Source of the DNA: Acuticoccus sediminis
GTDB taxonomy: Bacteria; Pseudomonadota; Alphaproteobacteria; Rhizobiales; Amorphaceae
Direction: 5' to 3'
NCBI RefSeq assembly: GCF_003258595.1
Contig: NZ_QHHQ01000002.1
Coordinates: forward strand, 620,001-684,000
Length of the DNA stretch: 64,000 nt
Part shown: positions 30,703-54,248 of the stretch, piece after piece
Numbering within the stretch: position 1 is the stretch's first letter
Layout: each line of letters begins with the position of its first letter
Program-made: the position numbers and the translations under genes
The notes under the pieces: model-generated
The model's input: only the letters and a program-made list of their open reading frames with translations
Databases searched by the model: none
Told to the model about the DNA's origin: nothing

Positions 30703-30740
30703 GCCGACAATGGGGGCAGGCTCGCCTGCGACAACGGCAA

Positions 30741-32140: not shown

Positions 32141-32874
32141 TGCGTTCGCTCGCCGCCCGCAGCCTGGTGCCCGAGCTGCTCGACACGCTTCCCGCCGACG
32201 ATCCCGGCGCGATCAGATCGCGCGGCGACATCCGGCGGATCAACGCGATCAGCTTCGCCGCGCACATCCTCGCCGGGCGGATGCGGCGGCACGCGGTGGC
32301 ACCGCCGCGCCGGATCCTCGACATCGGCTGCGGCGACGGGCGCATCATGCTCGCGCTCGCGCGTCGTCTGGCCTCCACCTGGCCGGGCGTCGCGGTCACC
32401 CTACTCGACCGGCAGGACATCGTCGTGCCCCGCACGCTCGCCGGCTTCACCGCGCTCGGCTGGTCCGCCGCGACGCGAGGGGAGGACGTCCTCCGGCCGG
32501 AGGCCTTCACGTCCGGGCCGTTCGACATCGTCGTCGCCAACCTCTTTCTCCACCATTTCGGCGACGCGGCACTTGCCCCACTGCTCGCGAACGTCGCCGC
32601 GTCGGCGGGACTGTTCGTCGCCGCCGAGCCGCGCCGGCGCCCGCTGACCCTCGTCGCGGCGCAGGCTCTCGGCGCGATCGGCGCCAACCGCGTGACGCGG
32701 CACGATGCCCCCGCGAGCGTCCGTGCCGGCTTTCGCGCGGGCGAGCTCACCGCGCTGTGGCCGCGGTCGCGGCAGGTGCTGGAAGAGCGGACGGTCGGCC
32801 CGTTCACGCATGTCTTTGCCGCCCGCGGGACGGCCGCGGGACCGGCCGGGCGACCGCCGGAGGACGCGGCATGA
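32140..32874 (+). CDS. SAM-dependent class I methyltransferase
   Basis: This 244-residue methyltransferase has the SAM-binding motif I ILDIGCGDGRIMLALAR near residue 59 and the later FDIVVANLFLHHF. Its position, overlapping both the type III PKS (one base) and the FAD enzyme (ATGA), indicates it methylates the polyketide or an intermediate. Similar PKS-methyltransferase-oxidoreductase trios occur in other bacteria. Confidence 0.88.
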   Translation: MRSLAARSLVPELLDTLPADDPGAIRSRGDIRRINAISFAAHILAGRMRRHAVAPPRRILDIGCGDGRIMLALARRLASTWPGVAVTLLDRQDIVVPRTLAGFTALGWSAATRGEDVLRPEAFTSGPFDIVVANLFLHHFGDAALAPLLANVAASAGLFVAAEPRRRPLTLVAAQALGAIGANRVTRHDAPASVRAGFRAGELTALWPRSRQVLEERTVGPFTHVFAARGTAAGPAGRPPEDAA

Positions 32875-36874: not shown

Positions 36875-38137
36875 CTAGGGCAGACCGCTGGTCAGGATCT
36901 GCGCGACCGGAACGTACATAAGCACCAGGAGCACCAGTACAATCGAGAGCGCGAACGGCAGCGTACCCTTGAAGACCTCGACCACCGGCACCCGGCTCGT
37001 CGCGCTGACGACGAAGAGGTTGAGGCCGATCGGCGGGCTGATGACCGCAAGTTCCATGTTGATGATCAGCAGGACGCAGAAATGGACAAGGTTGATGTCC
37101 ATCTCGACGAGGATGGGCGCGAGGATCGGCATCGCGATGAGGATGACGGAGATGACCTCCAGGAACATCCCGCACGCGATGAAGAAGATCATGATCAGCC
37201 CGAGGAGCTGCCACGGCTCCAGCTGGAGGGCGACGATGAAGTTGAACACCCGGTAGGGCACCCGCTCGACGGTGAGTGCGTAGCCGAAGAGGGTGGCCCC
37301 GGCGAGGATGAGCAGGATCATCCCGGCGATCGCCGCCGAGTTCGACAGGATCTGCGGAATGTCCCGCAGCGGCACGCGGTACTGCAGCACCGCCAGGCCG
37401 AGCGCGTAGATGCTGGCGACCGCCGACGCCTCGGTCGGCGTGAACTGGCCGGAGAAGATGCCGCCGAGGATGAGCACCGGGAGGAAGAGGACGCCGCCGG
37501 CGCTCCAGGTCCGCCGCAGTCGCTCGCGCATGGACTGCTTCGGTGCCGGCTCGATCCCCGAGCGGCGGCCGATCACGTACGCGACCGCCGCCAGCGTCGC
37601 GGCGAGCAGAAGGCCCGGCAGCAGCGTCGCCGAGAACAGGCTGCCGATCGATTGCTCGGTGACCATCCCGTAGACGATCACCGGTATGGACGGCGGGATC
37701 AGGATGCCGAGGCCGCCGGCGGTGGCGACGAGGCCGACGGCGAAGCGCTTGTCGTAGCCCCGCGCCACCATCTCGGGGATCATCACTGAACCGATCGCCG
37801 CGGCCGTGGCGACGGACGATCCGGAGATGGCGGAGAAGAAAGCCGTTGCGACCACGGCGACGACCGGGAGGCCGCCCTTGTTGTGGCCGAGCCAGGCGTC
37901 GACCATGCGCACCAGCCGGCTCGTTCCGCCCGACCGGTTGAGGATCTCCACCGCCAGGATGAAGAAGGGGATCGACAGGAGCGTGGTGGAGTTCAGCGCG
38001 CCGAAGAGGTTCGCGGCGAAGGTGCTCGGATACTCCCCGGCGAGGAGGATGTAGGACAGGCCCGCCGCCGCCAACGCGAAGGCGACGGGGACGCCGAGAA
38101 CGAGCGCGGTGCCAAGCACACCAACCGTGGCTAACAT
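36875..38137 (-). CDS. dctM: TRAP transporter large permease DctM, enamidase-cluster system
   Basis: This 420-residue inner-membrane permease (PF06808) has about 12 helices. The DctM marks AISGSSVATAAAIGSVMIPEM near residue 100, GGLGILIPPSIPVIVYG and the C-terminal ISPPIGLNLFVV are present. It forms the ion-coupled channel for the receptor DctP. The ATG at 38137 has CGGAG upstream. It ends the dctPQM operon and is followed by a permease remnant. Confidence 0.93.
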   Translation of the reverse strand: MLATVGVLGTALVLGVPVAFALAAAGLSYILLAGEYPSTFAANLFGALNSTTLLSIPFFILAVEILNRSGGTSRLVRMVDAWLGHNKGGLPVVAVVATAFFSAISGSSVATAAAIGSVMIPEMVARGYDKRFAVGLVATAGGLGILIPPSIPVIVYGMVTEQSIGSLFSATLLPGLLLAATLAAVAYVIGRRSGIEPAPKQSMRERLRRTWSAGGVLFLPVLILGGIFSGQFTPTEASAVASIYALGLAVLQYRVPLRDIPQILSNSAAIAGMILLILAGATLFGYALTVERVPYRVFNFIVALQLEPWQLLGLIMIFFIACGMFLEVISVILIAMPILAPILVEMDINLVHFCVLLIINMELAVISPPIGLNLFVVSATSRVPVVEVFKGTLPFALSIVLVLLVLMYVPVAQILTSGLP

Positions 38138-38165
38138 CGTCGGATACTCCGGTTGGGCGTGTCGT

Positions 38166-38681
38166 TCAGGCGGTCGGGACCACGTCGTGCTCTTCCAGCA
38201 CCGCGACCTTGCCCTGCGCGAGGGCGACAATCCGAGCGATCGACCGGATCATGACGAGGGCACCGCCGAGAGGCATGATGGACTGCGGGATCCACATCGG
38301 GATGCGGATGGTGCCCAGCGTGGAGTCGCCGAAGACGAGGCTCTCCTGGACCAGCAGCACGCCGCTGTAGACGAGCGCGGCGCCGATAGCGGCCATCACG
38401 AGGCAGATGACGACCTCCATCCAGAAGGCGACCGGCGCCGGGACGAGGCGGATGAGGATGTCGACGCGGACGTGGACGTTGCGGCGGATCCCGGCGCCGG
38501 CGGTCAGGATGACGCTCCAGATCATGCAGAACGTCGCGACTTCGTAGATGCCGCTGATCCCGTAGCCGAAGACGGCCCGCATCAGCGTCTGACCGACGAT
38601 CAGGAGGGACGATATCAGGAGAAGCATCCCGCCGGCCCGGTCTTCGATGAAGGTCAGTACGGAGGACAGTCCTCTCAGCAT
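38166..38681 (-). CDS. dctQ: TRAP transporter small permease DctQ, enamidase-cluster system
   Basis: This 171-residue four-helix protein is of the DctQ family (PF04290), with the typical central segment NVHVRVDILIRLVP. It pairs with DctM and docks the receptor. AGGAGA precedes the ATG, and it sits between dctP and dctM. Confidence 0.92.
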   Translation of the reverse strand: MLRGLSSVLTFIEDRAGGMLLLISSLLIVGQTLMRAVFGYGISGIYEVATFCMIWSVILTAGAGIRRNVHVRVDILIRLVPAPVAFWMEVVICLVMAAIGAALVYSGVLLVQESLVFGDSTLGTIRIPMWIPQSIMPLGGALVMIRSIARIVALAQGKVAVLEEHDVVPTA

Positions 38682-38711
38682 GGTCGTCTCCTGATCGCCG
38701 GTGTGACGGGG

Positions 38712-39695
38712 TTATTCCTGGATCTGGGTGATGTAGTCCTTGATCATCTGGGGCTGCTCATCCCAGATGGCGGCACCGGCGCTCTGCCAGGCGGTGAACT
38801 CCTCGTCGGTCGGCGTGTACCAGGTGATGCCGTTCGCACCGAGCTCGTCTTCCCAGTGCTTGACGTTCTCGAGCGCCTTCTCCTGGTTCCAGGCCGCCGC
38901 CTCCTCGACCGCGCGCATGAAGCCCTCGCGCTGGCTGTCGGACAGCTTGGCGAGGCTGCGCTGGTTCATCACGAGGCCGTAGCCACCCCAGCCCCAGATC
39001 ACCTTCGTGCCGTTGGTGAGGACCTCGTTCCAGCGGGAGGGGCCCGCGTAGGTCGGGGTGGTGGCGACGGAGTCGGCGACGCCCTGCTGCAGGGCGAGGT
39101 AGACTTCCGGCGCGGGGAGGGCGACGGGCGTCGCCGAAGCGCCCTCGATCAGCGCCTCCAGCGGAGCGGAGGGAGCGACGCGGGTCTTCAGCCCGGCCAT
39201 GTCCGCCGGCGTCTTGACCTCGCGGTCCTTGGAAAAGAGGTAGACCGGTCCGTCATGCCAGATCGACAGGCCGACGAGACCGGAATTTTCCACCCTCTCC
39301 AGAATGCTCCGACCGACCGGCCCAGCAAACACTTCCACCGCCTGCTCAGGGCTGGCGAACAGCGTCGGCATGTAGAAGACGTTCCACGCCTCGTCGATCG
39401 CCGAGAAGTAGCTCGTGTATGGCGCGACGAGGTCGACCTGCCCGCGCGACACGGCACGGAGCTCCTCGACCGTGGGGACGAGCTGCGCCCCCGGGAAGAC
39501 CTGAACCTCGACTTCGCCGTTGGTGTATTCGCTGACGAGCTCGGCCAGGCGCGTCGCGGTCTGACCCTTGATCGTGGTCTCGGGCGCTTCGTGCGCCAGC
39601 TTGAGGACCACCTCCTGGGCGCTTGCGGGCAGGACCCAGACCGCGGCCGTCACGGCCGCCGCGGCGAGCGCGACCTTGAATTTGTCGTGGGACAT
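38712..39695 (-). CDS. dctP: TRAP transporter substrate-binding protein DctP, enamidase-cluster system
   Basis: This 327-residue periplasmic receptor (PF03480) has a signal peptide cleaved near PASAQE and the family core ending in LKTRVAPSAPLEALIEG, which holds the Arg that pairs with the ligand carboxylate. The ligand is unknown; genes upstream process an N-containing or dicarboxylic acid. AGAGGAGA precedes the ATG. The promoter region carries a long inverted repeat. Confidence 0.93.
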   Translation of the reverse strand: MSHDKFKVALAAAAVTAAVWVLPASAQEVVLKLAHEAPETTIKGQTATRLAELVSEYTNGEVEVQVFPGAQLVPTVEELRAVSRGQVDLVAPYTSYFSAIDEAWNVFYMPTLFASPEQAVEVFAGPVGRSILERVENSGLVGLSIWHDGPVYLFSKDREVKTPADMAGLKTRVAPSAPLEALIEGASATPVALPAPEVYLALQQGVADSVATTPTYAGPSRWNEVLTNGTKVIWGWGGYGLVMNQRSLAKLSDSQREGFMRAVEEAAAWNQEKALENVKHWEDELGANGITWYTPTDEEFTAWQSAGAAIWDEQPQMIKDYITQIQE

Positions 39696-39845: not shown

Positions 39846-40349
39846 TTAGGCAGATGCCGTGAGCAGCCCCCTCGATTGCGCGGCGGCGCGGCGGAAGACC
39901 TGGATCGTCACGGTGCCGTCCGCGACGCGGCGGCCGTCGTCGGTCAGGATGTCGAACCGGCGGGTGACGACGCCGAAGTCGGCGTTGGACTTCGACGGCC
40001 GCATGGCCTCCACGACGAGTTCGACGTGGATTGACGCGCCCGCTTCCACCACTCCGGTGAAGCGCCAGTTCGACTGGAGGATGGCGTTCGAGGCGACCTG
40101 ATCGAGCCCCATGTCGTGGACGAGGCCGGCGGCCCAGGCGACGGTCATGTAGCCGTGCGCGATGACGTCCCCGAAGCCGGACCGCCGGGCATGCGCCGGG
40201 TCGAGGTGGATCGGGTTGAAGTCGCGGGTCGCCGCCGCGAACGCGCGGATGTCGTCGGCACCAACGCGTCTCGCCCCGGTGACCCAGCAGTGCCCGACAC
40301 CGAGCCGCTCGTAGTCCTCGAAGAACACCGCCCGGTCGGTTTGGGCCAC
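39846..40349 (-). CDS. MaoC family (R)-hydratase-like protein
   Basis: This 167-residue hot-dog-fold protein (PF01575) has the catalytic Asp/His set typical of (R)-specific enoyl-CoA hydratases in RDFNPIHLDPAHARRSGFGDVIAHGYM near residue 42. It probably hydrates an unsaturated acyl-CoA made in this cluster. The start is GTG at 40349, two bases after the crotonase stop, preceded by GGAAGGG. It is the last gene before the TRAP operon. Confidence 0.87.
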   Translation of the reverse strand: MAQTDRAVFFEDYERLGVGHCWVTGARRVGADDIRAFAAATRDFNPIHLDPAHARRSGFGDVIAHGYMTVAWAAGLVHDMGLDQVASNAILQSNWRFTGVVEAGASIHVELVVEAMRPSKSNADFGVVTRRFDILTDDGRRVADGTVTIQVFRRAAAQSRGLLTASA

Positions 40350-40351
40350 AG

Positions 40352-41206
40352 TCAGTATCCCTTCCAGACCGGCGGTCGCTTCTCGGCGAACGCCCGCGGT
40401 CCTTCGCGCACGTCTTCCGACGCCCGCAGCCGGCGCACCGCAGTCCGCTCGTCCTGACGGGAGAGGGACTGCTCCACCGGGTCCATGAGGGCCGCAACCG
40501 TGTCCTTTGCGGCGCGCACGGCGAGCGGTGAGCTCCGGCAGACCCGCCGCGCCCAGTCCATCGCGGCTTCGAGGACGGCACCGTCCTCCACCACCTCGTT
40601 GACGAGACCGAACCTCTCCGCCTCCTCGGCGGTGATAGCGTCGCCCGTCATGATCATCGCCATCGCGCGCTTGAGGCCGACCTGCGTGGTGAGACGCTGA
40701 AGGCCGCCCGACGCCGGGATCAGGCCGGCCCGGCACTCCGGCAGCCCGAAGCGCGCGCCGCGTGCGGCCACCACCAGGTCGCAGGCGAGGGCGAGCTCGA
40801 ACCCACCGCCCAGCGCCAGCCCGTTGACGGCGGCGATGATCGGCTTGTCGCAGTCGAACCGGCGCGCGAGCCCGCCGAAGCCGCCCGGTCCCCACCCTTC
40901 GGTTTCGCCGGCGGCAAGCGCCTTCAGGTCGTATCCGGTGCAGAAGGCACGGGGGCCGGCACCGGTGAGAATCGCGACCCACTGGTCGGGATCGGCGGCG
41001 AACGCGTCGAAGATCTCGCCGAGCTCCTCGTGCGCGGCGCGGTGCAGCGCGTTCATCACCTCGGGCCGGTTCAGCGTGACCACGGTGATCCGGCCGACCG
41101 TCTCGACGGAGGCAAAGCGACGGGCGATCGACGTCTCCGGGTCGGTCCGCTCCATGTCGGCCGGCTGCATGTCGGTCGGCTGCATGTCGGCGCGGCCTCC
41201 GCTCAC
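40352..41206 (-). CDS. Enoyl-CoA hydratase/isomerase family protein (crotonase), enamidase cluster
   Basis: This crotonase-fold protein has AFCTGYDLKAL and GGGFELALACDL for the oxyanion hole. The first catalytic Glu is kept (LPECRAGLIPASGG), but the second (rat Glu164) is Ala in RAMAMIMTG, so it may be an isomerase, carnityl-CoA-dehydratase-like enzyme or thioesterase rather than a standard hydratase. The GTG at 41206 overlaps the CoA-transferase beta stop, giving 284 residues. The first 18 residues come from a 15-base tandem repeat, so an ATG at 41185 or 41155 could also be used. Confidence 0.85.
   Translation of the reverse strand: MSGGRADMQPTDMQPADMERTDPETSIARRFASVETVGRITVVTLNRPEVMNALHRAAHEELGEIFDAFAADPDQWVAILTGAGPRAFCTGYDLKALAAGETEGWGPGGFGGLARRFDCDKPIIAAVNGLALGGGFELALACDLVVAARGARFGLPECRAGLIPASGGLQRLTTQVGLKRAMAMIMTGDAITAEEAERFGLVNEVVEDGAVLEAAMDWARRVCRSSPLAVRAAKDTVAALMDPVEQSLSRQDERTAVRRLRASEDVREGPRAFAEKRPPVWKGY
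41154..41195. repeat. 15-base tandem repeat in the crotonase 5' end
   Basis: The unit ATGTCGGyCGGCTGC occurs twice plus a partial third copy. On the coding (minus) strand it encodes repeated (A/T)DMQP and supplies several in-frame ATG codons at the gene start. Confidence 0.7.
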
Positions 41207-41973
41207 GCGATGAAGATGCGTTCGGGGTCGAGACGGCGCAGGATCTCGAGTTCCCGCAGCGTCACCGGCGACGTCACAGGCACCTCGTCCGGCCAGTGGA
41301 CGTCGAAGCCGGTGTTGTCGGCGACCTCGTCGCGTGTCACCCCGGCGTGGAGGGCCCTGGCCCGCATCCGTCGTGTCTCAGGGGCGAAGTCGAACAGCCC
41401 AAGGTCAGTGACGACCAGGCGGCATCCCCCGTACGGCAGGCCGTTGTCGCCGCGGCTGGTGCCGCCCGCGAGGAACCCGGGTGTTGTGATAAAGTCCACC
41501 TTCGGCACGAACCGCCGCCGTTCGTGGCGCATCGAGACGATGTAGTCGGTCAGGCTGCCGATGTCGTTCGCACCGCCGGAGCCCGGCAGGCGCACCCTGG
41601 GGCTCGCCGTTTCGCCGATGAAGGAGGAGTTGAGGTTGCCGTATGCGTCGATCTGGGCCCCGCCGAGGAAGCCGATATCGACGTAGCCTCGCTGCATCAT
41701 CAGCATGACCTCCGAACTGCCGAGGACCATGCGGGAGAGCCGGGTGCAGCGCTGGTCGTTGGTCGACGGCGGCAACCTGCCGTCTTCCACCCAGGCGCCG
41801 ATGATCCCGCCCTCGAAGAGGATGGTCAGCTCCGGGCAATCGAGGCGTTGCGCGAGGCTCGCCGCGAGAAGCGGCGTCCCGACCCCGGCAAAGACGACCT
41901 GCCCGTTCTGCAGGGCACGGGCGGAGTAGACGGCGAGCACCTCGGCGGCGGTCGCCTCGGGTCGGTCAGTCAC
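41203..41973 (-). CDS. CoA-transferase family I, beta subunit (glutaconate CoA-transferase B-like)
   Basis: This 256-residue subunit (PF01144) has VFAGVGTPLLAASLAQRL at the N-terminus and the FLGGAQIDAYGNLNSS segment. Family I enzymes use a glutamyl-CoA intermediate; the Glu candidate is in the LFEGGIIGAW segment, which departs from the SENG/ENG motif of acetate-type enzymes. It pairs with the upstream alpha subunit. The GTG at 41973 overlaps the alpha stop by eight bases. The substrate is unknown; glutaconate- or steroid-ring-acid-type enzymes share this layout. Confidence 0.85.
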   Translation of the reverse strand: MTDRPEATAAEVLAVYSARALQNGQVVFAGVGTPLLAASLAQRLDCPELTILFEGGIIGAWVEDGRLPPSTNDQRCTRLSRMVLGSSEVMLMMQRGYVDIGFLGGAQIDAYGNLNSSFIGETASPRVRLPGSGGANDIGSLTDYIVSMRHERRRFVPKVDFITTPGFLAGGTSRGDNGLPYGGCRLVVTDLGLFDFAPETRRMRARALHAGVTRDEVADNTGFDVHWPDEVPVTSPVTLRELEILRRLDPERIFIA

Positions 41974-42928
41974 GGTAGATGCTCCTTCCCCGGCCCATCG
42001 CCTCGACAAGCTCGGCGACGCCGATCCGCTCCAGGAACTGCGTCCAGTCCGCCGGTTCATGCACCAGCTCGGTCATCAGTGCCTCGAAGCCGCTCCGCGG
42101 GTCCGAGTTGGCGCGGGCGACGTAGCGGTCGAGATGGCGCATCATAGGCTCGTAGAGGCCGAAGCACTCGTGCGGCGCGCTCCCGAACGGGACGTCGACC
42201 ACCGCCTCGACGCAGAAGAACGGGATCCTGGTCCGCTCCGGCGCCCGCCGGATCTGCTCGGTGGATACGATCTCCTCGGTGGTCAGGATCACCCGGTCGG
42301 CCGCGCAGGCGAGGTCGATGTCCATGAACGGCAATCCGTCGATCTGCGCGTTTCCGAACCGGTCGCAGCGCTGGACGTGGATGATCGCGACCTCGGGATT
42401 GAGAGCGGGGACGAGGAGCACTTCCTCACCGGTGAACGGGCACGTCGAGCGGCCGACCTTGCCTGCGGCGAGGCGCTCCAAGTCGGAGCCGATGACCGTG
42501 CGCATCGGCATGAACGGAACGCCCATCGCGCCGGCGTGGTAGCGCTGCCCCATGGCGAGGTGGCTCCACTCCTCGTAGACGACCGCGCCGGTCTCGAACC
42601 GGTCCCGCGCCACCTTCGACAGGCCCCAGGAGATGCCCTGCGCGCACCAGGATGTCTCGATCCGGTCCGCGATGCCGCTGCCGACCACCCAGTCCCCGTC
42701 GGTGGACATCATGCTGCGGGAGACGTTGAGGTTCCGCCGGCCGGACTTGATCAGCTGCCAGATCATCGCCATGGGCGTGCGGGACATGATCGAGCCGCCG
42801 ATACCGAGCGAGGCACCGTCGGGCACGAGCGCGGCGGCCTCGGCCAGCGACATCGTCTTGTCATGCATCGACCGGTCGCGCCGGCCGACACTGTCCCGGA
42901 TGTCTCGGTAAGCTCTCACCGAATTCAA
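41966..42928 (-). CDS. CoA-transferase family I, alpha subunit (glutaconate CoA-transferase A-like)
   Basis: This subunit opens with SLAEAAALVPDGASLGIGGSIMSRTPMAM, typical of family I alpha chains, and continues with GVPFMPMRTVIGSDL and the PFTGEEVLLVPALNPEVAIIHVQRCDRFGNAQIDG segment. The TTG at 42928 has AGAGGAG seven bases upstream and is preferred; an ATG at 42868 starts closer to the domain. It follows the enamidase-like gene by about 50 bases and overlaps the beta gene. Confidence 0.85.
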   Translation of the reverse strand: MNSVRAYRDIRDSVGRRDRSMHDKTMSLAEAAALVPDGASLGIGGSIMSRTPMAMIWQLIKSGRRNLNVSRSMMSTDGDWVVGSGIADRIETSWCAQGISWGLSKVARDRFETGAVVYEEWSHLAMGQRYHAGAMGVPFMPMRTVIGSDLERLAAGKVGRSTCPFTGEEVLLVPALNPEVAIIHVQRCDRFGNAQIDGLPFMDIDLACAADRVILTTEEIVSTEQIRRAPERTRIPFFCVEAVVDVPFGSAPHECFGLYEPMMRHLDRYVARANSDPRSGFEALMTELVHEPADWTQFLERIGVAELVEAMGRGRSIYRD

Positions 42929-42980
42929 TCCAGTCTCCTCTGGTAGAGGTTCGCCCGTTGCCGTGCCGTAAAGGCGCCGG

Positions 42981-44168
42981 TCAGGCGGAGAAATCGTTGA
43001 TGATGTCCGAGCGGACGACGCGCACGGGCGTCCTGGTCGGCGGAGTGTTCCGGCTGCGGCCGACGAAGCGCGGCACACCGTTCGAGATGACCGCGCCGAC
43101 GGCGCAGATGTCGCCGTTGGCGAGGGCAGACTGGGCGTCGGCCATCGCGCCGCCCTCGCAGGCGTCCAGGATCACGAGGTCGGCATCGCGACCTTCCGCG
43201 AGGAGACCGCAGTTCAGTCCGTAGACGCGGGCGTTGCTCCCGGTCGCGGCGCCATAGGCGCGCGCCGGGTCGATCCCGCCGAGCGCGCTGAGGTGGGAGA
43301 TCGTATAGAGCATGCCGAGCGGCATGATCCCGCTGCCGGTGGGCGTGTCGGTGGCGATGAGGACACGCTCGAACGCGCCGGCGGCATCGGCCAGCGCGGC
43401 GGTGAGGAGCGCCGTGCGCAGGTTTCCGGCGGTGCAGATCTGCAGCGCCACCTCGCTCTCGTTGACGATGCGCGGGAAGTCTGCCTCGGGCATCGCAACG
43501 GGTCCGCCGTTGACGTGGAACGAGACGTGGGGGTTCACCCTGATCACGTGATCCGCCCAGATGCCGGACGAACCGGGGATCGAGGCGCCACCGGTGTGCA
43601 TGAGCGTGATCATCCCCGCCGCGCGGGCGGCGGCGACGAGCTCGGCATAGTCGTAGGGTGTCTCGAACGCGCCGAACCCGGCCTTCGCCAGCCAGACGCC
43701 CTTCGCCGCCAGCTCCGCCATGTCGCCGGGCTCGAGCGTCGGCTCGAGGATCACCGCGCCGGCATGGACCCGCATCCCGCCCGGGCGGAACCCTTCGAAG
43801 CAGCCGCGCGCGGCGAGCGCCAGCGCCTTCAGCCCCTCGCGGTCCTTCGGACGCCCCGGCGTATGCACCTCGGATGCGGTGATCGACGTGGTGACGCCGC
43901 CCTGCAGGTAGCTCTCGAGGAAACCGACCGTCTTCTGGCGCGGCGTGTAGTCGCCGAACGTGATGTGGACATGAGAGTCGATGAGGCCCGGCGCCAGCGT
44001 GGCGCCTCCCGCGTCGATGACGACGTTGCAGGATTCCACGTCGGCTGGGCTTGCGGACCCAACCGTCCGGATCAGTCCGTCTTCGCAGATCACCGTATCG
44101 GCTGATCGTACCGGGTCGTCGACCGCGCCGGTGAAGATCGTACCGATATTGACGATCGCGACTTTCAC
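42981..44168 (-). CDS. Enamidase-like amidohydrolase
   Basis: This 395-residue metallohydrolase of the amidohydrolase superfamily has the metal motif HVH (His66, His68), further ligands His191 (LMHTGGASIPGSS) and His218 (SFHVNGGP) and Asp274 (ATDTPTGSG). The HTGG..PGSS, NGGP and C-terminal SRNTPP segments resemble, from memory, enamidase of Eubacterium barkeri, which opens 6-oxo-1,4,5,6-tetrahydronicotinate to 2-formylglutarate and ammonia. A cyclic enamide or lactam substrate is therefore likely. It overlaps the PF06684-family gene by ATGA. No nicotinate hydroxylase is in the window. Confidence 0.78.
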   Translation of the reverse strand: MKVAIVNIGTIFTGAVDDPVRSADTVICEDGLIRTVGSASPADVESCNVVIDAGGATLAPGLIDSHVHITFGDYTPRQKTVGFLESYLQGGVTTSITASEVHTPGRPKDREGLKALALAARGCFEGFRPGGMRVHAGAVILEPTLEPGDMAELAAKGVWLAKAGFGAFETPYDYAELVAAARAAGMITLMHTGGASIPGSSGIWADHVIRVNPHVSFHVNGGPVAMPEADFPRIVNESEVALQICTAGNLRTALLTAALADAAGAFERVLIATDTPTGSGIMPLGMLYTISHLSALGGIDPARAYGAATGSNARVYGLNCGLLAEGRDADLVILDACEGGAMADAQSALANGDICAVGAVISNGVPRFVGRSRNTPPTRTPVRVVRSDIINDFSA

Positions 44169-44749
44169 GCCGAGGCTGCCTTGCGGCGCGAGCGGGCCTC
44201 TTCGTGGGTGAGGCCGCCGACCCGGGCGCCGATCCGGCCGCGCGTCAGCATGCAGAAGATCACGGCAATTTCGTCGGGCATGGGCGTGCCCGGAAAACAG
44301 AGGGACACCGCGTCGTAGTGCGACCGGACGTAGATGTCGTGGATGTTGTTCACGGGCACGTCGATCAGCGTCCCGGCCGGCGCGACCTTGGTGACGGACG
44401 AGATCCAGGCGACGGGGTCGCCGATCATGTCGCGAAGGGGGTTGGCGAAGGCCGTCGTCAGCAGTGCGTTGGCATGCTCCTGCTCGCCCGCGAGGCCGAC
44501 GAGTCCGGCCTTGCCGTAGCTCTGGATGTCCAGCCCGCGGCAGAGACCGGTGGCGATCTCGACCATGTGATGGGCGAGGCCGACACTCCCGTCGACCAGC
44601 GGCGAGAGGTCGTCCACCTGCTGGCCGGCGAAGGGGTTTTCGACCACCGACACGACCGAGATCCGCGTCAGCGGCGGGTCACCCGCGCGTCCTGCAATGA
44701 CGTGCAGATCGTCCCGCTGAATGATGTCCCGTCGAACAACCAGGTCCAT
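44165..44749 (-). CDS. Amino acid synthesis family protein (PF06684-like), unknown reaction
   Basis: This 194-residue protein resembles the family named 'amino acid synthesis' (formerly DUF1185). It shows ISVVSVVENPFAGQQVDDLSPLVD at the N-terminus, YGKAGLVGLAGEQEHANALL near residue 90 and the C-terminal DEIAVIFCMLTRGRIGARVGGL. The true function of this family is not established. It is the first gene of the enamidase-cluster operon, with GGAGCG before the ATG at 44749, which suggests a core step such as ring hydrolysis or substrate handling (inference). Confidence 0.75.
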   Translation of the reverse strand: MDLVVRRDIIQRDDLHVIAGRAGDPPLTRISVVSVVENPFAGQQVDDLSPLVDGSVGLAHHMVEIATGLCRGLDIQSYGKAGLVGLAGEQEHANALLTTAFANPLRDMIGDPVAWISSVTKVAPAGTLIDVPVNNIHDIYVRSHYDAVSLCFPGTPMPDEIAVIFCMLTRGRIGARVGGLTHEEARSRRKAASA

Positions 44750-44781
44750 GTGAATCGCTCCATTCCAAGCGTAATAGGACG

Positions 44782-44827
44782 GATTGTCTTGCAATCTGTC
44801 AATCTGGCATGCAAACAAAATTGTAAC
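44782..44827. promoter_or_regulatory. Divergent promoter region with GATTG-N5-CAATC and AATTGTAAC
   Basis: The short inverted repeat GATTG/CAATC (44782-44796) and the AATTGTAAC half-site (44819-44827) lie between the divergent enamidase-cluster operon and the GntR gene. AATTGTAAC also occurs before the TRAP operon at 39810-39818, pointing to common control, probably by this GntR. Confidence 0.5.
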
Positions 44828-44897
44828 GGGAAATTTGCGGAGCGGATCACCTCCTCCCGGGGGTGGCCGCGCAGCGGATAGGGGAGGTGGCAGCCGG

Positions 44898-45644
44898 ATG
44901 GAGGCGAAGAGGAAGCCGGATACGTCGTCAATGGGCGATCTGCGCATCGCGCCGCGGCTTCTCGTCGACGAGGTCGTCAACCGGATCAGGGACCTCATCG
45001 CGACGGGCGCGCTCCGGCCGGGTGACCGCATCGTCGAGACCGACCTGTCGGCGCGGTTCGGGGTGAGCCGCCCGCTGCTGCGCGAGGCGATCAGGACGCT
45101 GCAGGCCCAGCGTCTGTGCGTGATAACCCCTCACCGGGGGGCCCACATCCCCGTGCTCGGATGGGATGACGCGCGCGAGATCTACCACGTGCGCGAGCTG
45201 CTGGAGGGCGAGGCCTGCGCCCTCTGCGCCGCCGCTGTCACCGACAACGACGTCGCCGAGCTGGAGGGCGCGCTCGCCCGCTTCGGTGCGGCCGTCGAGG
45301 CGGACGCGCCGTCCGGGCGCATCGAGGCCACCGAAGAGTTCTACGAAATCATCGTCCGCACCGCCGGCAATTCCGTGCTCGAGGAGCTGCTGCAGGGGCT
45401 CATCGCGCGCGTCAGCATGCTCCGCGCGCGCTCCATGGAGCGGCCCGGTCGCGCCCGGCACAGCTACGTCGAGATGAAGGCGATCTGCGAGGCCATCGCC
45501 CGGCGGGATGGAGCGGCCGCGCGCGAAGCCGCGATCGACCACGTGCGTCACGCACGGGAGGCCGCCAAGGCCTCGTTCGCCGCCGCCGGCGGTCGGGATC
45601 CCGCCGGGCGGGGCAGTGAAGGTGGGGAGACCGGACTTGGATAG
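44898..45644 (+). CDS. GntR-family regulator with FCD domain, enamidase cluster
   Basis: This 248-residue FadR-type regulator has a winged helix (LVDEVVNRIRDLIATGALRPGD..VETDLSARFGVSRPLLREAIRTLQ) near residues 20-85 and an FCD sensor domain. It is divergent from the enamidase cluster and is probably its repressor. The ATG at 44898 has GGGGAGG upstream. Unusually, its stop overlaps the start of a PurA homolog by eight bases, so the regulator and PurA are co-translated. Confidence 0.9.
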   Translation: MEAKRKPDTSSMGDLRIAPRLLVDEVVNRIRDLIATGALRPGDRIVETDLSARFGVSRPLLREAIRTLQAQRLCVITPHRGAHIPVLGWDDAREIYHVRELLEGEACALCAAAVTDNDVAELEGALARFGAAVEADAPSGRIEATEEFYEIIVRTAGNSVLEELLQGLIARVSMLRARSMERPGRARHSYVEMKAICEAIARRDGAAAREAAIDHVRHAREAAKASFAAAGGRDPAGRGSEGGETGLG

Positions 45645-46929
45645 TGTCGTTGTCGTCGGCGCGCAGTGGGGCGACGAGGGTAAGGGGAAGATCGTCGACC
45701 TTCTTGCCGGTGAGGCGGACATGGTCGTGCGCTTCAACGGCGGGCACAACGCCGGCCACACGCTGGTGATCGGCGGGGCGACGTACAAGCTCGCTCTCAT
45801 TCCGAGCGGCGTCGTGCGGGGCTGCAGGTCGCTCATCGGCGGCGGCGCGGTCGTGGACCCGCAGCACTTCCGGCGGGAGCTCGCAGGCCTCGCGGACCTC
45901 GGCGTCGCGGTCGGTCCGGACCTCCTCAAGGTGGCCGACAACGCGGCGCTCATCCTTTCGCCCCATCGCGAGCTCGACCGTGCCCGCGAGACGGTGTCCA
46001 CCGGCGGCGCGCGCATCGGCACGACGCAGCGCGGCATCGGCCCCGCCTACGAGGACAAGGTCGGCCGGCGCGCGATCCGGATCGCGGACCTGCGCGATTT
46101 GAATCGGCTCGGCGAGCGGATTTCCGGCTTGTGTGCGCACCACGACCCGCTCCGTGCGGCGTGCGGTCTGGCGCCGATCGACCCGGACGCCCTGATGGCG
46201 GAACTGCGGGAGGCGGCCGAGGTGCTCCTTCCATTCGCGGTCAACGCGACGCACGCTCTGGCGCAGGACGCGCCCGCACGGGTCCTCTACGAAGGCGCGC
46301 AGGGCTCCCTGCTGGATCCGGACTTCGGCACCTACCCATACGTCACCTCGTCGACCACGCTCGCCGGATTCGCATCCGTGGGCGCCGATCACGGTCGTGG
46401 CGGGGTCCACCGCGTGCTGGGCGTCGTGAAGGCTTACGCCACGCGGGTCGGCGAGGGACCGCTGCCGACGGAGCTGCACGACGCGGTGGGTACGCACCTC
46501 GGCGAACGCGGCCAGGAGTTCGGCGTCAATACCGGGCGCAAGCGCCGCTGCGGCTGGCTCGACGCCGTCGCGCTGCGGTACGCCGCGCGGCTCAACGGCA
46601 TGACCGGAATGGCGCTCACCAAGATCGACGTGCTGGATGGGCTCGACTGCCTCGAGGTCTGCGTCGGATACGAGCTTGACGGCGGCACCATCGACTACCT
46701 GCCGACCGGCATCTGCGCCCAGACGCGGATGAAGCCCGTGTACCGGACGTTCGAGGGATGGCGTGGATCGACTGCCGATATCCAGAGCATGGAACGGTTC
46801 CCGCAGCAGGCCCGCACGTACATGGACTTCATCGCCGAGTTCACACAGATCCCGCTCGACCTCGTATCGACCGGGCCGGACCGCGCCTCCACCATCATCA
46901 TCAACGATCCCTGGGCGCCCGCGAACTGA
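45637..46929 (+). CDS. purA: Adenylosuccinate synthetase (PurA) homolog
   Basis: This 430-residue GTP-dependent ligase is of the PurA family. With the TTG at 45637 (GGGGAGA upstream) the two catalytic residues fall at Asp13 (GDEGKGK) and His41 (GGHNAGHT), the same numbers as in E. coli. The IMP segment GTTQRGIGPAYEDK and the GWLD..ALTKIDVLDGL guanine region are kept. The aspartate loop reads VNTGRKRR instead of the usual TTTGR/ATTGR. Standard activity makes adenylosuccinate from IMP and aspartate; its coupling to a catabolic GntR gene raises the chance of a paralog with another role. Whether a second purA exists in the genome is unknown. Confidence 0.88.
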   Translation: MDSVVVVGAQWGDEGKGKIVDLLAGEADMVVRFNGGHNAGHTLVIGGATYKLALIPSGVVRGCRSLIGGGAVVDPQHFRRELAGLADLGVAVGPDLLKVADNAALILSPHRELDRARETVSTGGARIGTTQRGIGPAYEDKVGRRAIRIADLRDLNRLGERISGLCAHHDPLRAACGLAPIDPDALMAELREAAEVLLPFAVNATHALAQDAPARVLYEGAQGSLLDPDFGTYPYVTSSTTLAGFASVGADHGRGGVHRVLGVVKAYATRVGEGPLPTELHDAVGTHLGERGQEFGVNTGRKRRCGWLDAVALRYAARLNGMTGMALTKIDVLDGLDCLEVCVGYELDGGTIDYLPTGICAQTRMKPVYRTFEGWRGSTADIQSMERFPQQARTYMDFIAEFTQIPLDLVSTGPDRASTIIINDPWAPAN

Positions 46930-48511: not shown

Positions 48512-48578
48512 CGGCCGGACCTTTCGCACGACGCGTGCCGGCAATGAGGTCACTGCCGATGTGCGATGCGCTTTATAC

Positions 48579-48615
48579 CAGTACATTCCAATTGACACGG
48601 AAGATTGTACCGGTC
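48579..48615. promoter_or_regulatory. MocR operator candidate before the aminotransferase operon
   Basis: CAGTACATT (48579-48587) and TTGTACCGGT (48605-48614) lie 30-65 bases before the start codon. Both halves match the elements before the MocR gene: GTACATT is identical, and TGTACCGGT is the exact complement of ACCGGTACA there. Confidence 0.6.
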
Positions 48616-48644
48616 TAATCAGAGGGCAGCAGACGCCAGGAGAG

Positions 48645-49775
48645 ATGACCGTGCCGCAGGTCAGTTCGAGAGCTTTGGTTGAAGGTCCGGTTTATGTTCC
48701 CGGCCTTCCACGGGAATACGTCGCCGCGAAGTACGGCATCCCGCTGGACGACATCGCGAAGCTCGGCTCCGCTGAGAACCCGCACGGCCCTTCGCCCAAG
48801 GCCGTCGAGGCGCTCGCCAAGATGGACCCCAAGCTCGACATCTATCCGGACTGGACCGCCAGGCCGCTGCGTGAGGCCATCGCCAAACGCTACGGCTTCG
48901 ACCCCGACTGCGTGGTCTGCGGCTCAGGGGAGACCGAGGTCATCTCACTCGTCATCCGCGCCTTCTGCGGCGTCGGCGAGTCCATCCTGATGCACGACCC
49001 CTGCTTCCCGATCTACCGGATCTTCTCCACCGTCGAGGGCCGCGTGCCGATGCTCGTGCGCATGGGCGAGGACTTCGACCCGGTGGTCGATGCCTACGTC
49101 GCGCGGCTGGCGGAGAAGCCGCGCATCGCCTTCATCACCAGCCCGCACAACCCGACGGGCAGGCTCCTCGACGAGACCGAGGTGCGCCGGATCTGCGACG
49201 CCGCGGACCGCGAGACCCTCGTCGTGCTGGACGAAGCCTACATTCATTATTCCGAGACCGACGGGATGATGCATCTGCTGCGCGAGTACGACAACCTGAT
49301 CGTGCTGCGCACCTTCTCCAAGGCCTATGGTCTCGCCGGGCTGCGCGTCGGGTTCGGCATCGCGGCCAACCCCGACCTGATCCGCCCGCTGCGCAACATC
49401 AAGCCGACCTGGAACATGGGCCACCTGCAGATGGCCGGCGGAGCCGCGGCCGTGTTCGACGACGAACACGTCAACCGCGCCGTCGCAACCGTCGTCGCCT
49501 CCAAGGCGATGGTCGAAGCGGCGATGGCGAAGATGAACGCCTTCCGCATGGTGCCCGGCTGCCGGTCGAACTTCTTCCTCACCGAGATCCTCGATCCCGA
49601 CCTCGATTCCACCGCCGTGTTCAACGGCCTGCTCGAGCGGGGCGTGATCGTGAAGGACGGGACCGACATCGAGGGGCTGGGGCCGCGGTATCTGCGGGTC
49701 GACCTCAACCTGCAGAAGCACATGGAGCGGTTCCTCGGCGCGCTGCGCGACATCGAAATGAGCAAGGTCGCCTGA
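48645..49775 (+). CDS. Aminotransferase class I/II, histidinol-phosphate aminotransferase-like
   Basis: This 376-residue PLP enzyme of fold type I has the PLP lysine Lys226 in RTFSKAYGLAGLRVG, the cofactor Asp in VVLDEAYIHYSE and NPTG in SPHNPTGRLL, as in the HisC group. In a catabolic operon it more likely transaminates the product of ring opening than histidinol phosphate. The ATG at 48645 has CCAGGAGAG directly upstream. HyuA begins at the base after its stop. Confidence 0.9.
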   Translation: MTVPQVSSRALVEGPVYVPGLPREYVAAKYGIPLDDIAKLGSAENPHGPSPKAVEALAKMDPKLDIYPDWTARPLREAIAKRYGFDPDCVVCGSGETEVISLVIRAFCGVGESILMHDPCFPIYRIFSTVEGRVPMLVRMGEDFDPVVDAYVARLAEKPRIAFITSPHNPTGRLLDETEVRRICDAADRETLVVLDEAYIHYSETDGMMHLLREYDNLIVLRTFSKAYGLAGLRVGFGIAANPDLIRPLRNIKPTWNMGHLQMAGGAAAVFDDEHVNRAVATVVASKAMVEAAMAKMNAFRMVPGCRSNFFLTEILDPDLDSTAVFNGLLERGVIVKDGTDIEGLGPRYLRVDLNLQKHMERFLGALRDIEMSKVA

Positions 49776-51854
49776 TTGGCCGGCGTCGCGATGAAGATCG
49801 AGATCGGGATCGACGTCGGCGGGACCTTCACCGACGCCACGGTTCTGGACGGCGAGGACGGGGCGGTCATCGCCGCGTTCAAGCTGCCGTCCACGCGGCG
49901 CGATCCGGGCGATGCCGTCCTCGAGGCGCTGCGCCGGATCGGCGCCGAGCACGACCTTTCCGCGGCGCAGGTCAGCCACGGCACGACCGTCGGCACGAAC
50001 GCCCTGATCGAGCGGAAGGGGGCGCGCACCGCGCTCGTCACGACGGCGGGGTTCGCCGACGTGATCGAACTGCGCCGCCAGGACCGCCCGGAGCTCTATC
50101 GCTGGGACGTGCGGGTCACGGCGCCGCTCGTCCCGCACGAACTCCGGTTCGAGGCGGCGGAGCGTCTCGACCATACGGGCGCGGTGGTCCGGCCGCTCGG
50201 CAACCTCGACGCCCTCGTCCGCGACCTTCTTGCCGCCGCGCCGGATGCGGTGGCGATTTCGTGTCTCCACGCCTACGCCAACCCGGCGCACGAGATCGCG
50301 CTGAAGGCGGCGATCACCGAGGCGCTGCCGGACGCCTTCGTGAGTGCCTCCCACGAGGTCTGCCCCGAGCTCGGCGAGTACGAGCGGACCTCCACCACCG
50401 TCGTCAACGCCTACATCGGCCCGGCCGTGTCCCGCTATCTGCGCCGGCTGGAGCGGGAGGCGGCGGCCATGGGGGTCCGGTCCCTCTCCATCGTCAAGTC
50501 AAACGGCGGCCTCACTTCGCCCGAGAACGCCTCGCGCTTTCCCGCACACCTCATCGAGAGCGGCCCTGCCGCGGGGATCATCGCCGCCGCGGCCTACGCC
50601 GGAGCCTCGCAGCACCGCGACCTGATCGCGTTCGACATGGGTGGCACGACCGCCAAGGCGAGCGTCGTCAGGGACACGCGGCCGAGCGTCGGCAAGGAAT
50701 TCCTCGCCGACCGTCTCGTGGATGGGCGGGACGAGGGTGGCCATCTCATCCGCAGCACGGTGCTCGACGTGGTCGAGATCGGCGCGGGCGGTGGCTCGAT
50801 CGCCGCGATCGACGCAGGCGGTGTGCTGAAGGTCGGGCCGCAGAGCGCCGGCGCAGACCCGGGGCCGGCGTGCTACAGCCGCGGCGGCGACCGCCCGACC
50901 GTTACGGACGCCCACGCCGTCATCGGCACCCTCGCCGCCGAGACCTTCGAGGGGACCGGCGTGACCTTCGACCGCGACCGCGCCGTGCGCGTGATCGCCG
51001 ATCGGATCGCCGGTCCGATGGGCTGGGACCTCTCGCGCGCCGCCTACGCGATCCTCGACCTCGCGACCGCCCGCATGGCCGAGATGGTGCGCATGGCGAC
51101 GGTCCGGCGCGGCCTCGACCCGCGCGATTTCACGCTGCTCGCCTCCGGTGGAGCCGGCCCTCTCCACGCCGCCAACGTTGCCGCAGAGACCGGCGTGCGT
51201 GCCGTGGTCGTACCGCCACTGCCGGGCATGTTCTCGGCGCTGGGCGCGACCATGGGCGAGATTCGCCACGACCTGTCGAAGGCCTCTCTGGCGCTGATCG
51301 CGCAGGCGGACCACGGTTCCGTCGCGGAAGGGTTCGAGGCGCTTCGCGGGGAGGCCGAGACGCTGCTGGCGCGCGAGGTGCTGTCGGGGACGACCCGTAC
51401 CTTCGAGCGCTACCTCGACCTGCGCTTTGCCGGACAGCTCTTCGAGCTACGGATCCCGGTCGGCAGTGCCGAGCAGCCGCTGCCGCCGCTGTCCGAAGTG
51501 GAGCGGCGCTTCCGCGACGCATACCGTGAAGAGTTCGGTTTCGACCTGCCGAACGTCGCGGTCCAGTCGGTCAAGCTGCACGTCACTGCGCGGATGCAGC
51601 CTGACAGCTCCAGCGTGCGGGTCTTCCGCGAACAGGCGGCTCACCTCCGCGCGCCCGTGCCGACCCGGCGCCAGCCGTTCCTCGGCCGCGACGGCACGGT
51701 GTTCGACATCGACGTCTACAGGACCGGGCCGGTGGCCGGGCGGGTCGACGGTCCGGCGTTGATCGAGCACGCCGGATCGACGATCTGGATCGAGCGCGGG
51801 CATGTCGCGGAATTCTGCCGGGACGGTTCGGTGAAGGTGGAGGTCGGCTCGTGA
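49776..51854 (+). CDS. hyuA: Hydantoinase/oxoprolinase A-type subunit (HyuA)
   Basis: This 692-residue subunit of the ATP-dependent hydantoinase/5-oxoprolinase group (PF05378, PF01968) has the actin-like ATPase loop GIDVGGTFTDATVL at the N-terminus, the second phosphate loop AFDMGGTTAKASVV near residue 287 and SGGAGPLHAANVA near residue 455. With HyuB it hydrolyses cyclic amides (N-methylhydantoin, 5-oxoproline, caprolactam) or carboxylates ketones. TTG at 49776 directly after the aminotransferase stop is taken; an ATG at 49791 is an alternative. Substrate unassigned. Confidence 0.9.
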   Translation: MAGVAMKIEIGIDVGGTFTDATVLDGEDGAVIAAFKLPSTRRDPGDAVLEALRRIGAEHDLSAAQVSHGTTVGTNALIERKGARTALVTTAGFADVIELRRQDRPELYRWDVRVTAPLVPHELRFEAAERLDHTGAVVRPLGNLDALVRDLLAAAPDAVAISCLHAYANPAHEIALKAAITEALPDAFVSASHEVCPELGEYERTSTTVVNAYIGPAVSRYLRRLEREAAAMGVRSLSIVKSNGGLTSPENASRFPAHLIESGPAAGIIAAAAYAGASQHRDLIAFDMGGTTAKASVVRDTRPSVGKEFLADRLVDGRDEGGHLIRSTVLDVVEIGAGGGSIAAIDAGGVLKVGPQSAGADPGPACYSRGGDRPTVTDAHAVIGTLAAETFEGTGVTFDRDRAVRVIADRIAGPMGWDLSRAAYAILDLATARMAEMVRMATVRRGLDPRDFTLLASGGAGPLHAANVAAETGVRAVVVPPLPGMFSALGATMGEIRHDLSKASLALIAQADHGSVAEGFEALRGEAETLLAREVLSGTTRTFERYLDLRFAGQLFELRIPVGSAEQPLPPLSEVERRFRDAYREEFGFDLPNVAVQSVKLHVTARMQPDSSSVRVFREQAAHLRAPVPTRRQPFLGRDGTVFDIDVYRTGPVAGRVDGPALIEHAGSTIWIERGHVAEFCRDGSVKVEVGS

Positions 51855-53546: not shown

Positions 53547-54248
53547 GTGACCGATACATCTCGCCGTCGCGCGCGGATCGCGCTCATCGTGCCGTCGTCG
53601 AACACGGTCATGGAGAATGACCTCCACCGCGGGCTCCCGGCAGACCGTTATACCGTGCACACCGACCGGATGTACCTCATCGAGACGACGCGCGAGGCGG
53701 AGGTCCGGATGATCGAGGAGTTCGCCAAGCCGGCAGCCTCGGATCTCGGGACGCTGAACCCGGATCTCCTCGTCTTCGGCTGCACCTCGGCGGGGTCGCT
53801 GTTCGGGCTCGACTACGACGCCCGCGTCTGCGCCGAACTCGGCGAACTGGCCGGCTGCCCGGCGATGGGCGTTATCAACGCCGCGTCGGAGGCGCTGGAC
53901 GGCGCTGGCGCGCGCCGGCTCGCGGTGATCACGCCGTATATCGACGACCTCACCCGGTCGGTCGCAACGGCGCTGTCGGAGAAGGGCCGGGAGGTGGTCG
54001 CTGCGCACGGGATGGGCATCAGCGTCAACGTCGAGCTCTCCGATCCCACACCCGAGGACATCGTGCGCTTCGCCGCCGAGCGGCTGGACGGCGTCAGCTT
54101 CGACACCCTGTTCGTGTCCTGCACCAACTTCCGCGCGCTCGAAGCCCGAGAGGCCCTCGCCGCCCATTTCGGCGTCCCGGTCCTGACCAGCAATTCCACC
54201 GTGATCGACGCCATCCGCAAGCGGGTCGAAGCGTCCGTCGCGGCCTGA
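53547..54248 (+). CDS. Maleate cis-trans isomerase/arylmalonate decarboxylase-like protein
   Basis: This 233-residue member of the two-cysteine Asp/Glu racemase superfamily has catalytic Cys candidates Cys79 (VFGCTSAGS) and Cys192 (VSCTNFRAL) and the phosphate/carboxylate loop PSSNTVMEND. Relatives are maleate isomerase (final step of aerobic nicotinate breakdown), hydantoin racemase and arylmalonate decarboxylase. After HyuAB either racemising a hydantoin-like substrate or isomerising an unsaturated diacid fits. It lies 91 bases after HyuB on the same strand. Confidence 0.87.
   Translation: MTDTSRRRARIALIVPSSNTVMENDLHRGLPADRYTVHTDRMYLIETTREAEVRMIEEFAKPAASDLGTLNPDLLVFGCTSAGSLFGLDYDARVCAELGELAGCPAMGVINAASEALDGAGARRLAVITPYIDDLTRSVATALSEKGREVVAAHGMGISVNVELSDPTPEDIVRFAAERLDGVSFDTLFVSCTNFRALEAREALAAHFGVPVLTSNSTVIDAIRKRVEASVAA

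Follow-up and report, generated by a model that had tools for sequence, protein, structure and literature searches.

A Lys-type enamidase homologue and an overlapping PF06684 gene form a candidate ring-opening pair for N-heterocycles in Acuticoccus sediminis

We analysed a window of 64,000 nucleotides from Acuticoccus sediminis (contig NZ_QHHQ01000002.1, positions 620,001 to 684,000), centring on a minus-strand operon in which the gene of an enamidase-like amidohydrolase overlaps that of a PF06684 protein. Genes were called with a GC3-based heuristic, and domains were assigned with Pfam and NCBIfam models. From right to left, the operon runs through the following open, closely packed reading frames (window positions; CoA, coenzyme A; TRAP, tripartite ATP-independent periplasmic).

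44165..44749, minus strand: PF06684 (AA_synth, formerly DUF1185) protein, 194 amino acids; Pfam 174.8 bits
42981..44168, minus strand: enamidase-family amidohydrolase of the Lys type defined below, 395 amino acids, GTG start; PDB 2VUN, E 5.2e-97
41966..42868, minus strand: glutaconate-type CoA-transferase subunit A; Pfam CoA_trans, PDB 1POI chain A, 9.8e-39
41203..41973, minus strand: glutaconate-type CoA-transferase subunit B; PDB 1POI chain B, 1.2e-43
40352..41206, minus strand: crotonase / enoyl-CoA hydratase family protein; ECH_1, 224 bits
39846..40349, minus strand: MaoC-like hydratase; PF01575, 80.5 bits
38712..39695, minus strand: DctP, TRAP solute-binding protein; PF03480, 192 bits
38166..38681, minus strand: DctQ, TRAP small permease; PF04290, 101.5 bits
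36875..38137, minus strand: DctM, TRAP large permease; PF06808, 356 bits

The amidohydrolase start and the PF06684 stop overlap by 4 bp, a gap of 112 bp separates the amidohydrolase from the CoA-transferase, and base composition is even across the operon genes. An earlier, sequence-only reading of positions 39846-46929 had named the amidohydrolase, PF06684, two-subunit CoA-transferase, crotonase, MaoC and DctPQM genes; Pfam and PDB matches confirm that all are present and that the gene set is real and well formed. The importer genes, at 36875-39695, lie beyond that span.

The best solved match of the amidohydrolase is the enamidase of Eubacterium barkeri, an enzyme of nicotinate fermentation (2VUN; 328 bits, E 5.2e-97, residues 2-384); the next match stands at 5.5e-8. 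Its AlphaFold2 model (predicted local distance difference test (pLDDT) 88.6) likewise retrieved 2VUN first in Foldseek (E 2.5e-41, template modelling (TM) score 0.91), with the next hit at E 2.1e-14. The segments HTGG..PGSS, NGGP and SRNTPP, on which the sequence-only reading had founded the enamidase likeness, are present and align with 2VUN. That reading had also said that a non-enamidase best match, such as imidazolonepropionase or dihydroorotase, would speak against it; by sequence and fold the best match is enamidase, and dihydroorotase, hydantoinase and imidazolonepropionase were rejected as best match, their scores being low and partial. Models of hydantoinase, dihydropyrimidinase, allantoinase and dihydroorotase gave about 24-36 bits on the amidohydrolase against cut-offs of 357-647. 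The 7.76-Mb genome holds a single enamidase homologue of full length (five further, short matches score at most 25.4 bits), and this gene overlaps the genome's sole PF06684 gene; chance pairing is therefore not an issue.

Five of the six ligand columns are as in 2VUN: H66, H68, H191, H218 and D274 align with H67, H69, H193, H220 and D276, which we take to be metal ligands. The sixth column differs, the alignment placing K162 opposite Glu164 of 2VUN, presumably a metal-bridging ligand; K162 lies within strand 160-163 of the predicted model. A bridging lysine is that of hydantoinases and dihydroorotases. Across 128 homologues the six columns read HHKHHD in 83, HHEHHD in 28, QHKHHD in 14 and HHFHHD in 3, the last being a small third clade whose third column read K in another alignment. 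Lysine is found in the window enzyme and all 97 rows of its clade (Lys-type), and glutamate in 2VUN and 27 others (Glu-type). A quick tree gathers all 97 Lys-type rows in a single group (Shimodaira–Hasegawa-like approximate likelihood-ratio test (SH-aLRT) 98), the window enzyme pairs with that of locus L007, a Roseovarius metagenome-assembled genome (support 100), and ligand labels cluster far beyond shuffles. The 28 Glu-type rows do not group together (2 changes), owing to the long branches of 2VUN and L152, whose placement is uncertain. Residues around the site (GD.TPRQ, HTGG.SIP, NGG, S.NTP) are kept between the two types.

On sequence grounds, the amidohydrolase is thus an enamidase homologue but not a plain enamidase, and the label needs the qualifier 'Lys-type sister clade'. 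With the E. barkeri enzyme it shares its full length, 43% identity, the fold, five of six ligand columns and the SRNTPP tail; it differs in the lysine at Glu164, in its separate clade and in the lack of any 6-hydroxynicotinate reductase match across the 79 Lys-type loci described below. The enzymes of aerobic nicotinate clusters also fall outside its clade in the tree. Lys-type members occur in records titled Alpha- and Betaproteobacteria, Acidobacteria, Thermomicrobium and Rhodococcus, and those in plasmid records are annotated just as 'amidohydrolase family protein'.

Two further variants appeared in the alignment. Glutamine replaces the first metal-binding histidine (HxH to QxH) in 14 Lys-type sequences from Betaproteobacteria, Acidobacteria and genomes of the window's class (L049, L058, L062, L073, L076, L077, L083, L099, L104, L134, L138, L139, L140 and L141). 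The third enamidase-like clade carries a KFIFFP motif (L132:15946, L133:9816 and L143:9299) and lies in loci with molybdenum hydroxylase genes; the L143 gene adjoins a class II aldolase gene, and PF06684 is absent from L133 and L143.

The PF06684 call of the sequence-only reading holds with 174.8 bits against a cut-off of 27 (PDB 2QTP, 2.6e-29; 3BYQ, 8e-24). The predicted model (pLDDT 85.9) has 3BYQ as its best fold match (TM 0.83); 3BYQ and 2QTP alone are close, and the fold search gave no newer functional relative. Thirteen chosen sequences, the window's included, share 22 invariant columns, with NPxAG, YGK, GExE, RSH, R172 and R176 among them. An earlier 20-row alignment had 5 invariant columns; it contained broken or misframed rows (L007, L132), later left out with the plasmid rows.

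To survey neighbourhoods, we took the best 80 of 143 relatives as Lys-type loci and removed L061 as a duplicate (n = 79); presence counts in these loci depend on the chosen bit-score limits and on the flank length of each locus. PF06684 is present in 71 of the 79, and in 42 of 43 when just the loci with full flanks are counted; 53 of the 71 have it upstream, within 1 kb and on the same strand. The association extends across 387 genomes of the window's class (taken to be Alphaproteobacteria), of which 94 carry PF06684, 41 an enamidase homologue and 40 both: PF06684 occurs in 40/41 genomes with an enamidase homologue versus 54/346 without (Fisher p 4e-27, kinship ignored). Within 10 kb of a PF06684 gene lie 10/12 Lys-type, 25/34 Glu-type and 1/6 third-clade genes. 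On a tree of PF06684 proteins, 4 label changes suffice for the 87 that lie near Lys-type genes, versus 35.5 in shuffles. No publication linking PF06684 to enamidase was found in the open literature searched, nor an agreed function for the family in print, though structures have been solved since 2007.

Among 18 PF06684 loci read in genomes that lack an enamidase homologue, 8 contain a 6-hydroxynicotinate reductase gene, 5 HyuA, 4 both and 7 an alpha/beta hydrolase gene. Most of these 7 also hold luciferase-like monooxygenase, flavin reductase and aldehyde dehydrogenase genes, a set that resembles the trigonelline (tgn) genes. The PF06684 homologue TgnF, tied to trigonelline breakdown, is described in the accessible part of PMC7913881 as stimulating succinic semialdehyde oxidation by TgnE. 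The tgn pathway is thus alike in placing a PF06684 protein in N-heterocycle ring cleavage; it differs in that the window pair uses a metal amidohydrolase, and TgnF is likened here by description. In Mariluticola, PF06684, amidohydrolase, monooxygenase and TRAP genes and an annotated succinate-semialdehyde dehydrogenase stand in a row. Two nicotinate-type clusters carry tandem PF06684 genes (L149:1887-3052 and L150:2427-3691), which fall into two groups in the tree, one accompanying the Glu-type enamidase and the other also the reductase in genomes without enamidase.

Besides PF06684, the 79 loci contain genes for an HpaB-type monooxygenase (40), MarR (38), LivH (30), LivK (28), TctC (24), flavin reductase (23), DUF4286 (22), GntR (21), cupin (16), flavin adenine dinucleotide (FAD) monooxygenase (16), UbiD (8), DctM (8), DUF2848 (7), aldehyde dehydrogenase (7), UbiX (6), HyuB (5), EutA-like protein (4), MocR (4), HyuA (3), DctP (3), molybdenum hydroxylase (3), crotonase (2) and HisC-like aminotransferase (2); CoA-transferase, MaoC and 6-hydroxynicotinate reductase matches number 0. 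In the 43 full-flank loci, HpaB-type and FAD monooxygenases number 25 and 6. Ring-hydroxylating families beside the pair elsewhere (HpaB-type 40/79, FAD monooxygenase 16/79) count in favour of N-heterocycle ring opening.

On the other side of PF06684, the window continues as follows.

44898..45644, plus strand: GntR/FCD regulator, divergent from the PF06684 gene; PF07729 and PF00392
45508-46929, strand opposite to the operon: second copy of adenylosuccinate synthetase, 52% identical to the copy on contig C1
47135..48511, plus strand: MocR-type regulator; nearest NCBIfam model EhuR, 329 bits, cut-off 480
48561..49775, plus strand: HisC-like aminotransferase; TIGR01141, 269.4 bits, just below the cut-off of 276.55
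49776..51854, plus strand: HyuA, ATP-dependent lactamase/hydantoinase alpha; caprolactamase alpha, 458.1 bits, cut-off 1000; PF01968, PF05378
51851..53455, plus strand: HyuB, ATP-dependent lactamase/hydantoinase beta; caprolactamase beta model, 227 bits, cut-off 1000
53547..54248, plus strand: EutA / arylmalonate decarboxylase / maleate isomerase superfamily protein; PF17645, 61 bits; PDB 4FQ7 maleate isomerase, 2.4e-13

Position 46929, where the sequence-only reading ended, is the end of the adenylosuccinate synthetase gene, which it left unmentioned; the genes that relatives share lie further right, at 47.1-53.5 kb. The pair, DctPQM and relatives of MocR, the HisC-like aminotransferase, HyuA and HyuB occur together in L007, L010 (Microvirga massiliensis) and L093 (the window's genus), the aminotransferase at 80% in L007 and 58% in L010 and L093. 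L015 and L034 hold HyuB (62-63%) and MocR relatives, whereas L032 has distant versions of HyuA and HyuB (38 and 29%). Relatives of the EutA-like gene, at 65-80%, occur in L007, L015, L028 and L034 and were not seen in L010 or L093. The caprolactamase models are the closest for HyuA and HyuB, and ATP-dependent caprolactamase CapAB belongs to the same HyuA/HyuB family (PMC8453981, accessible part); at 458.1 and 227 bits, far under cut-offs of 1000, the window pair is not its orthologue.

From the observed homology, ligand pattern, clade and gene association we infer a reaction, a substrate and an order of steps. Probably, if only just, the two proteins encoded by the overlapping genes at 42981-44749 work as a pair that opens the ring of an N-heterocycle, either a cyclic enamide or a lactam. 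The amidohydrolase would most likely act on a cyclic enamide or unsaturated lactam, as homology suggests, hydrolysing its C-N bond and releasing ammonia and an oxo- or formyl-carboxylate. Given the genome association and the TgnF link, the PF06684 protein would most likely act on the same step or its product. The pair would work within a module of TRAP importer, MocR, HisC-like aminotransferase and HyuAB, joined in some relatives by the EutA/maleate-isomerase-like protein. Judging by the make-up of this module, what the importer takes up is probably a ring acid of the lactam type. CoA-transferase, crotonase and MaoC could feed the resulting diacid into beta-oxidation. A lactam substrate, one of the compounds proposed by the sequence-only reading, gains some support from the ATP-dependent lactamase/hydantoinase pair in a neighbourhood shared with three other loci, tempered by the 23 HyuA matches in the genome.

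Several observations weigh against this reading. Those 23 HyuA matches are a large expansion for 7.8 Mb and make HyuAB adjacency weak as evidence of substrate. The module (without EutA) is found in just three other loci and part of it in two more, and the HpaB-type gene was not seen in 39 of the 79. PF06684 is missing from eight loci (L012, L024, L036, L041, L048, L053, L070 and L080), only L041 of which has full flanks. Conversely, 54 genomes carry PF06684 without an enamidase homologue, and of 149 PF06684 genes just 50 have one within 10 kb; with so many away from enamidase homologues, PF06684 is not specific to this step. The Fisher tests ignore kinship. The PF06684 member HcdD belongs to the pathway of coumarin, which has no nitrogen, and had no stimulating effect according to the accessible part of PMC7913881. 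No activity of any Lys-type member was found in the literature searched, and the lysine bridging ligand leaves room for an imide or ureide substrate.

How far the acyl-CoA genes belong to the pair is a separate matter. The CoA-transferase matches glutaconate CoA-transferase 1POI best (subunit A 9.8e-39, B 1.2e-43). In subunit B, the Glu of FEGG aligns with the Glu of VESG in 1POI, presumably the catalytic residue; 5N01 chain D has N there. The diacid type proposed by the sequence-only reading is thereby upheld. The best NCBIfam model of the crotonase is DpgD (270 bits, under the cut-off of 400). The same reading had built a different route on these genes, and conservation does not support it: the 79 related loci yielded no CoA-transferase or MaoC gene and just 2 with a crotonase relative, and the idea that all these genes form a conserved operon with enamidase was rejected. 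Lack of conservation was an outcome which that reading had itself named as counting against it, alongside the non-enamidase best match that was not found.

CoA-transferase, crotonase and MaoC thus look like a local addition to the pair. That they are an independent acyl-CoA segment inserted between amidohydrolase and importer is quite conceivable, and we give it appreciable weight, short of even. In L007 the importer directly follows the amidohydrolase, and 21 kb of that locus gave no match to CoA-transferase, crotonase, MaoC or adenylosuccinate synthetase. Subunit B relatives (E<=1e-60) are rare, in 5 of 289 genomes, this one included, and in the four other genomes with the CoA-transferase pair the surrounding 10.6-17 kb that were read contained no amidohydrolase match. 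Set against insertion are the shared strand, the 112-bp gap and a base composition like that of the neighbours; a diacid-type CoA-transferase is also chemically sensible after ring opening.

Whether the operon serves nicotinate turns on the comparison of Lys-type and Glu-type settings. The sequence-only reading had raised a possible aerobic route that, if real, would differ from the clostridial path; the accessible part of PMC3511419 describes Azorhizobium and Bradyrhizobiaceae as degrading nicotinate via tetrahydro-oxonicotinate to glutarate, so such a route is not new. Clusters of the kind described for these aerobic relatives (Azorhizobium caulinodans, Bradyrhizobiaceae SG-6C) combine, in the loci read here, a Glu-type enzyme with a reductase and, where read, molybdenum hydroxylase and Liv genes, none of which adjoins the window pair; the Azorhizobium genes themselves enter the comparison by description. 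We named 6-hydroxynicotinate reductase from one public record, a Comamonadaceae plasmid, since no Pfam or NCBIfam model names the protein. Nicotinate-type clusters L127-L132, L149 and L150 unite an enamidase homologue, PF06684, UPF0280 and the reductase. Among 15 long Glu-type loci, 8 have the reductase, 9 PF06684 and 9 UPF0280; 6 lack PF06684 in reach, including all four from the window's genus. Near Lys-type genes, the reductase was matched in 0 of 79 loci.

Of 47 genomes that carry a Lys-type gene, 20 have both the reductase and a Glu-type enzyme, 4 the reductase alone (the window's included), 1 the Glu-type enzyme alone and 22 neither (Fisher p 2e-8, kinship ignored). Absence here means no Glu-type enzyme at E<=1e-40 (one search E<=1e-30) and no reductase at E<=1e-60. 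Here, as in the surveys of the 387 genomes and of subunit B, scoring was limited to 4 or 8 candidates in each genome, which may have overlooked a second homologue of lower score. That the Glu type tracks the reductase agrees with the aerobic nicotinate route already in print. Because the reductase tracks the Glu type and 22 of the 47 genomes have neither, the Lys-type enzyme probably does another job than the nicotinate-type Glu enzyme.

The sequence-only reading had noted that no nicotinate hydroxylase was visible. This is true of the window; another contig of the genome (C4, 350001-361000, L194) holds a cluster of molybdenum hydroxylase, 6-hydroxynicotinate reductase (67% to L130), UPF0280, cupin and a Liv-type transporter. 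The 30 kb searched there gave no PF06684 or HyuA match, and the genome has no Glu-type enamidase. One could therefore see the operon as the lower half of an aerobic nicotinate pathway, in which the amidohydrolase would open the tetrahydro-oxonicotinate made by the C4 cluster and glutaconate-type CoA-transferase, crotonase and MaoC would carry a glutarate-type diacid onward, as in Azorhizobium. The best case for it is that the window contains both the one full-length enamidase homologue and the one PF06684 gene of this genome, with a CoA-transferase closest to the glutaconate type. We nevertheless consider it unlikely: Glu-type enzymes are found in 20/24 reductase-positive and 1/23 reductase-negative Lys-type genomes, 22 having neither, and this co-occurrence counts against giving the window enzyme the role of nicotinate enamidase in its lineage. 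L007, the closest relative, carries the window-type module and also, 3.7 kb from its reductase (start to start), a Glu-type enzyme; in that genome the module is thus unlikely to serve nicotinate. Some genomes that lack an enamidase homologue have reductase loci as well, so the reductase needs none, and the window importer is of the TRAP type, not the Liv type of nicotinate-type clusters.

Four of these reductase loci without an enamidase homologue (E<=1e-40), L170, L172, L173 and L175, contain molybdenum hydroxylase or a partner, the reductase, UPF0280, PF06684 and HyuA, with Liv-type genes in three and HyuB in L170, L172 and L173. In these (4 of 8 reductase loci, 18 read), the enamidase step of a nicotinate-like route may fall to an ATP-dependent lactamase.

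Equally improbable, in our view, is that the amidohydrolase hydrolyses a cyclic imide or ureide of the hydantoin or dihydropyrimidine type and degrades a hydantoin-like compound with HyuAB and the EutA-like protein, its enamidase likeness reflecting descent. The bridging lysine suits this idea, as do a nearby gene of the EutA/AMDase superfamily and the inclusion of hydantoinases in the HyuAB family (PMC8453981, accessible part). It is hard to square with hydantoinase-type models at about 24-36 bits against cut-offs of 357-647, beside 328 bits over the full length for enamidase, and with site-surrounding residues as in Glu-type enzymes. Pyrrole-2-carboxylate (which 5-hydroxylation would turn into a cyclic enamide, to be opened to 2-oxoglutarate and ammonia), an idea drawn from HpaB-type, UbiD and UbiX neighbours in other loci, was set aside for want of literature support, and homarine for want of a matching operon publication. 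KpiC, an amidohydrolase of 4-hydroxypyridine degradation and in that respect similar, is 28% identical to enamidase and reported as an extradiol dioxygenase in the accessible part of PMC7356986, which by description sets it apart from the window enzyme.

Returning to the N-heterocycle ring-opening pair, we offer a broader joint proposal tentatively, since as a whole it is rather doubtful. Lys-type enamidase homologues and PF06684 might constitute a widespread and so far undescribed aerobic system that opens the rings of N-heterocyclic acids, nicotinate excepted, and PF06684 might be a formyl-/oxo-dicarboxylate decarboxylase or tautomerase acting on an unstable product, such as 2-formylglutarate, 2-formylsuccinate and the like, which the routes for nicotinate and trigonelline would share with the Lys-type route. 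In E. barkeri, 2-formylglutarate undergoes reduction instead of decarboxylation. The lasting lead is the partnership of PF06684 with enamidase homologues: its occurrence across two clades with differing neighbours narrows PF06684 to one assayable reaction step. The Lys/Glu split, in turn, sets the nicotinate-type enzymes apart from a sister group for which the literature searched yielded no assay. The window enzyme belongs to this little-known sister branch of a vitamin-B3-degrading enzyme, within what appears to be a kit for opening nitrogen-containing rings.

Elsewhere in the window, the extra adenylosuccinate synthetase gene lies within a catabolic region and had no match in the related loci searched. 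An RTX-repeat protein with a DUF5648 domain is encoded at 34106-36418, and positions 30536-34046 hold a type III polyketide synthase gene, a small open reading frame and then an FAD-dependent oxidoreductase-like frame, the last judged by eye.

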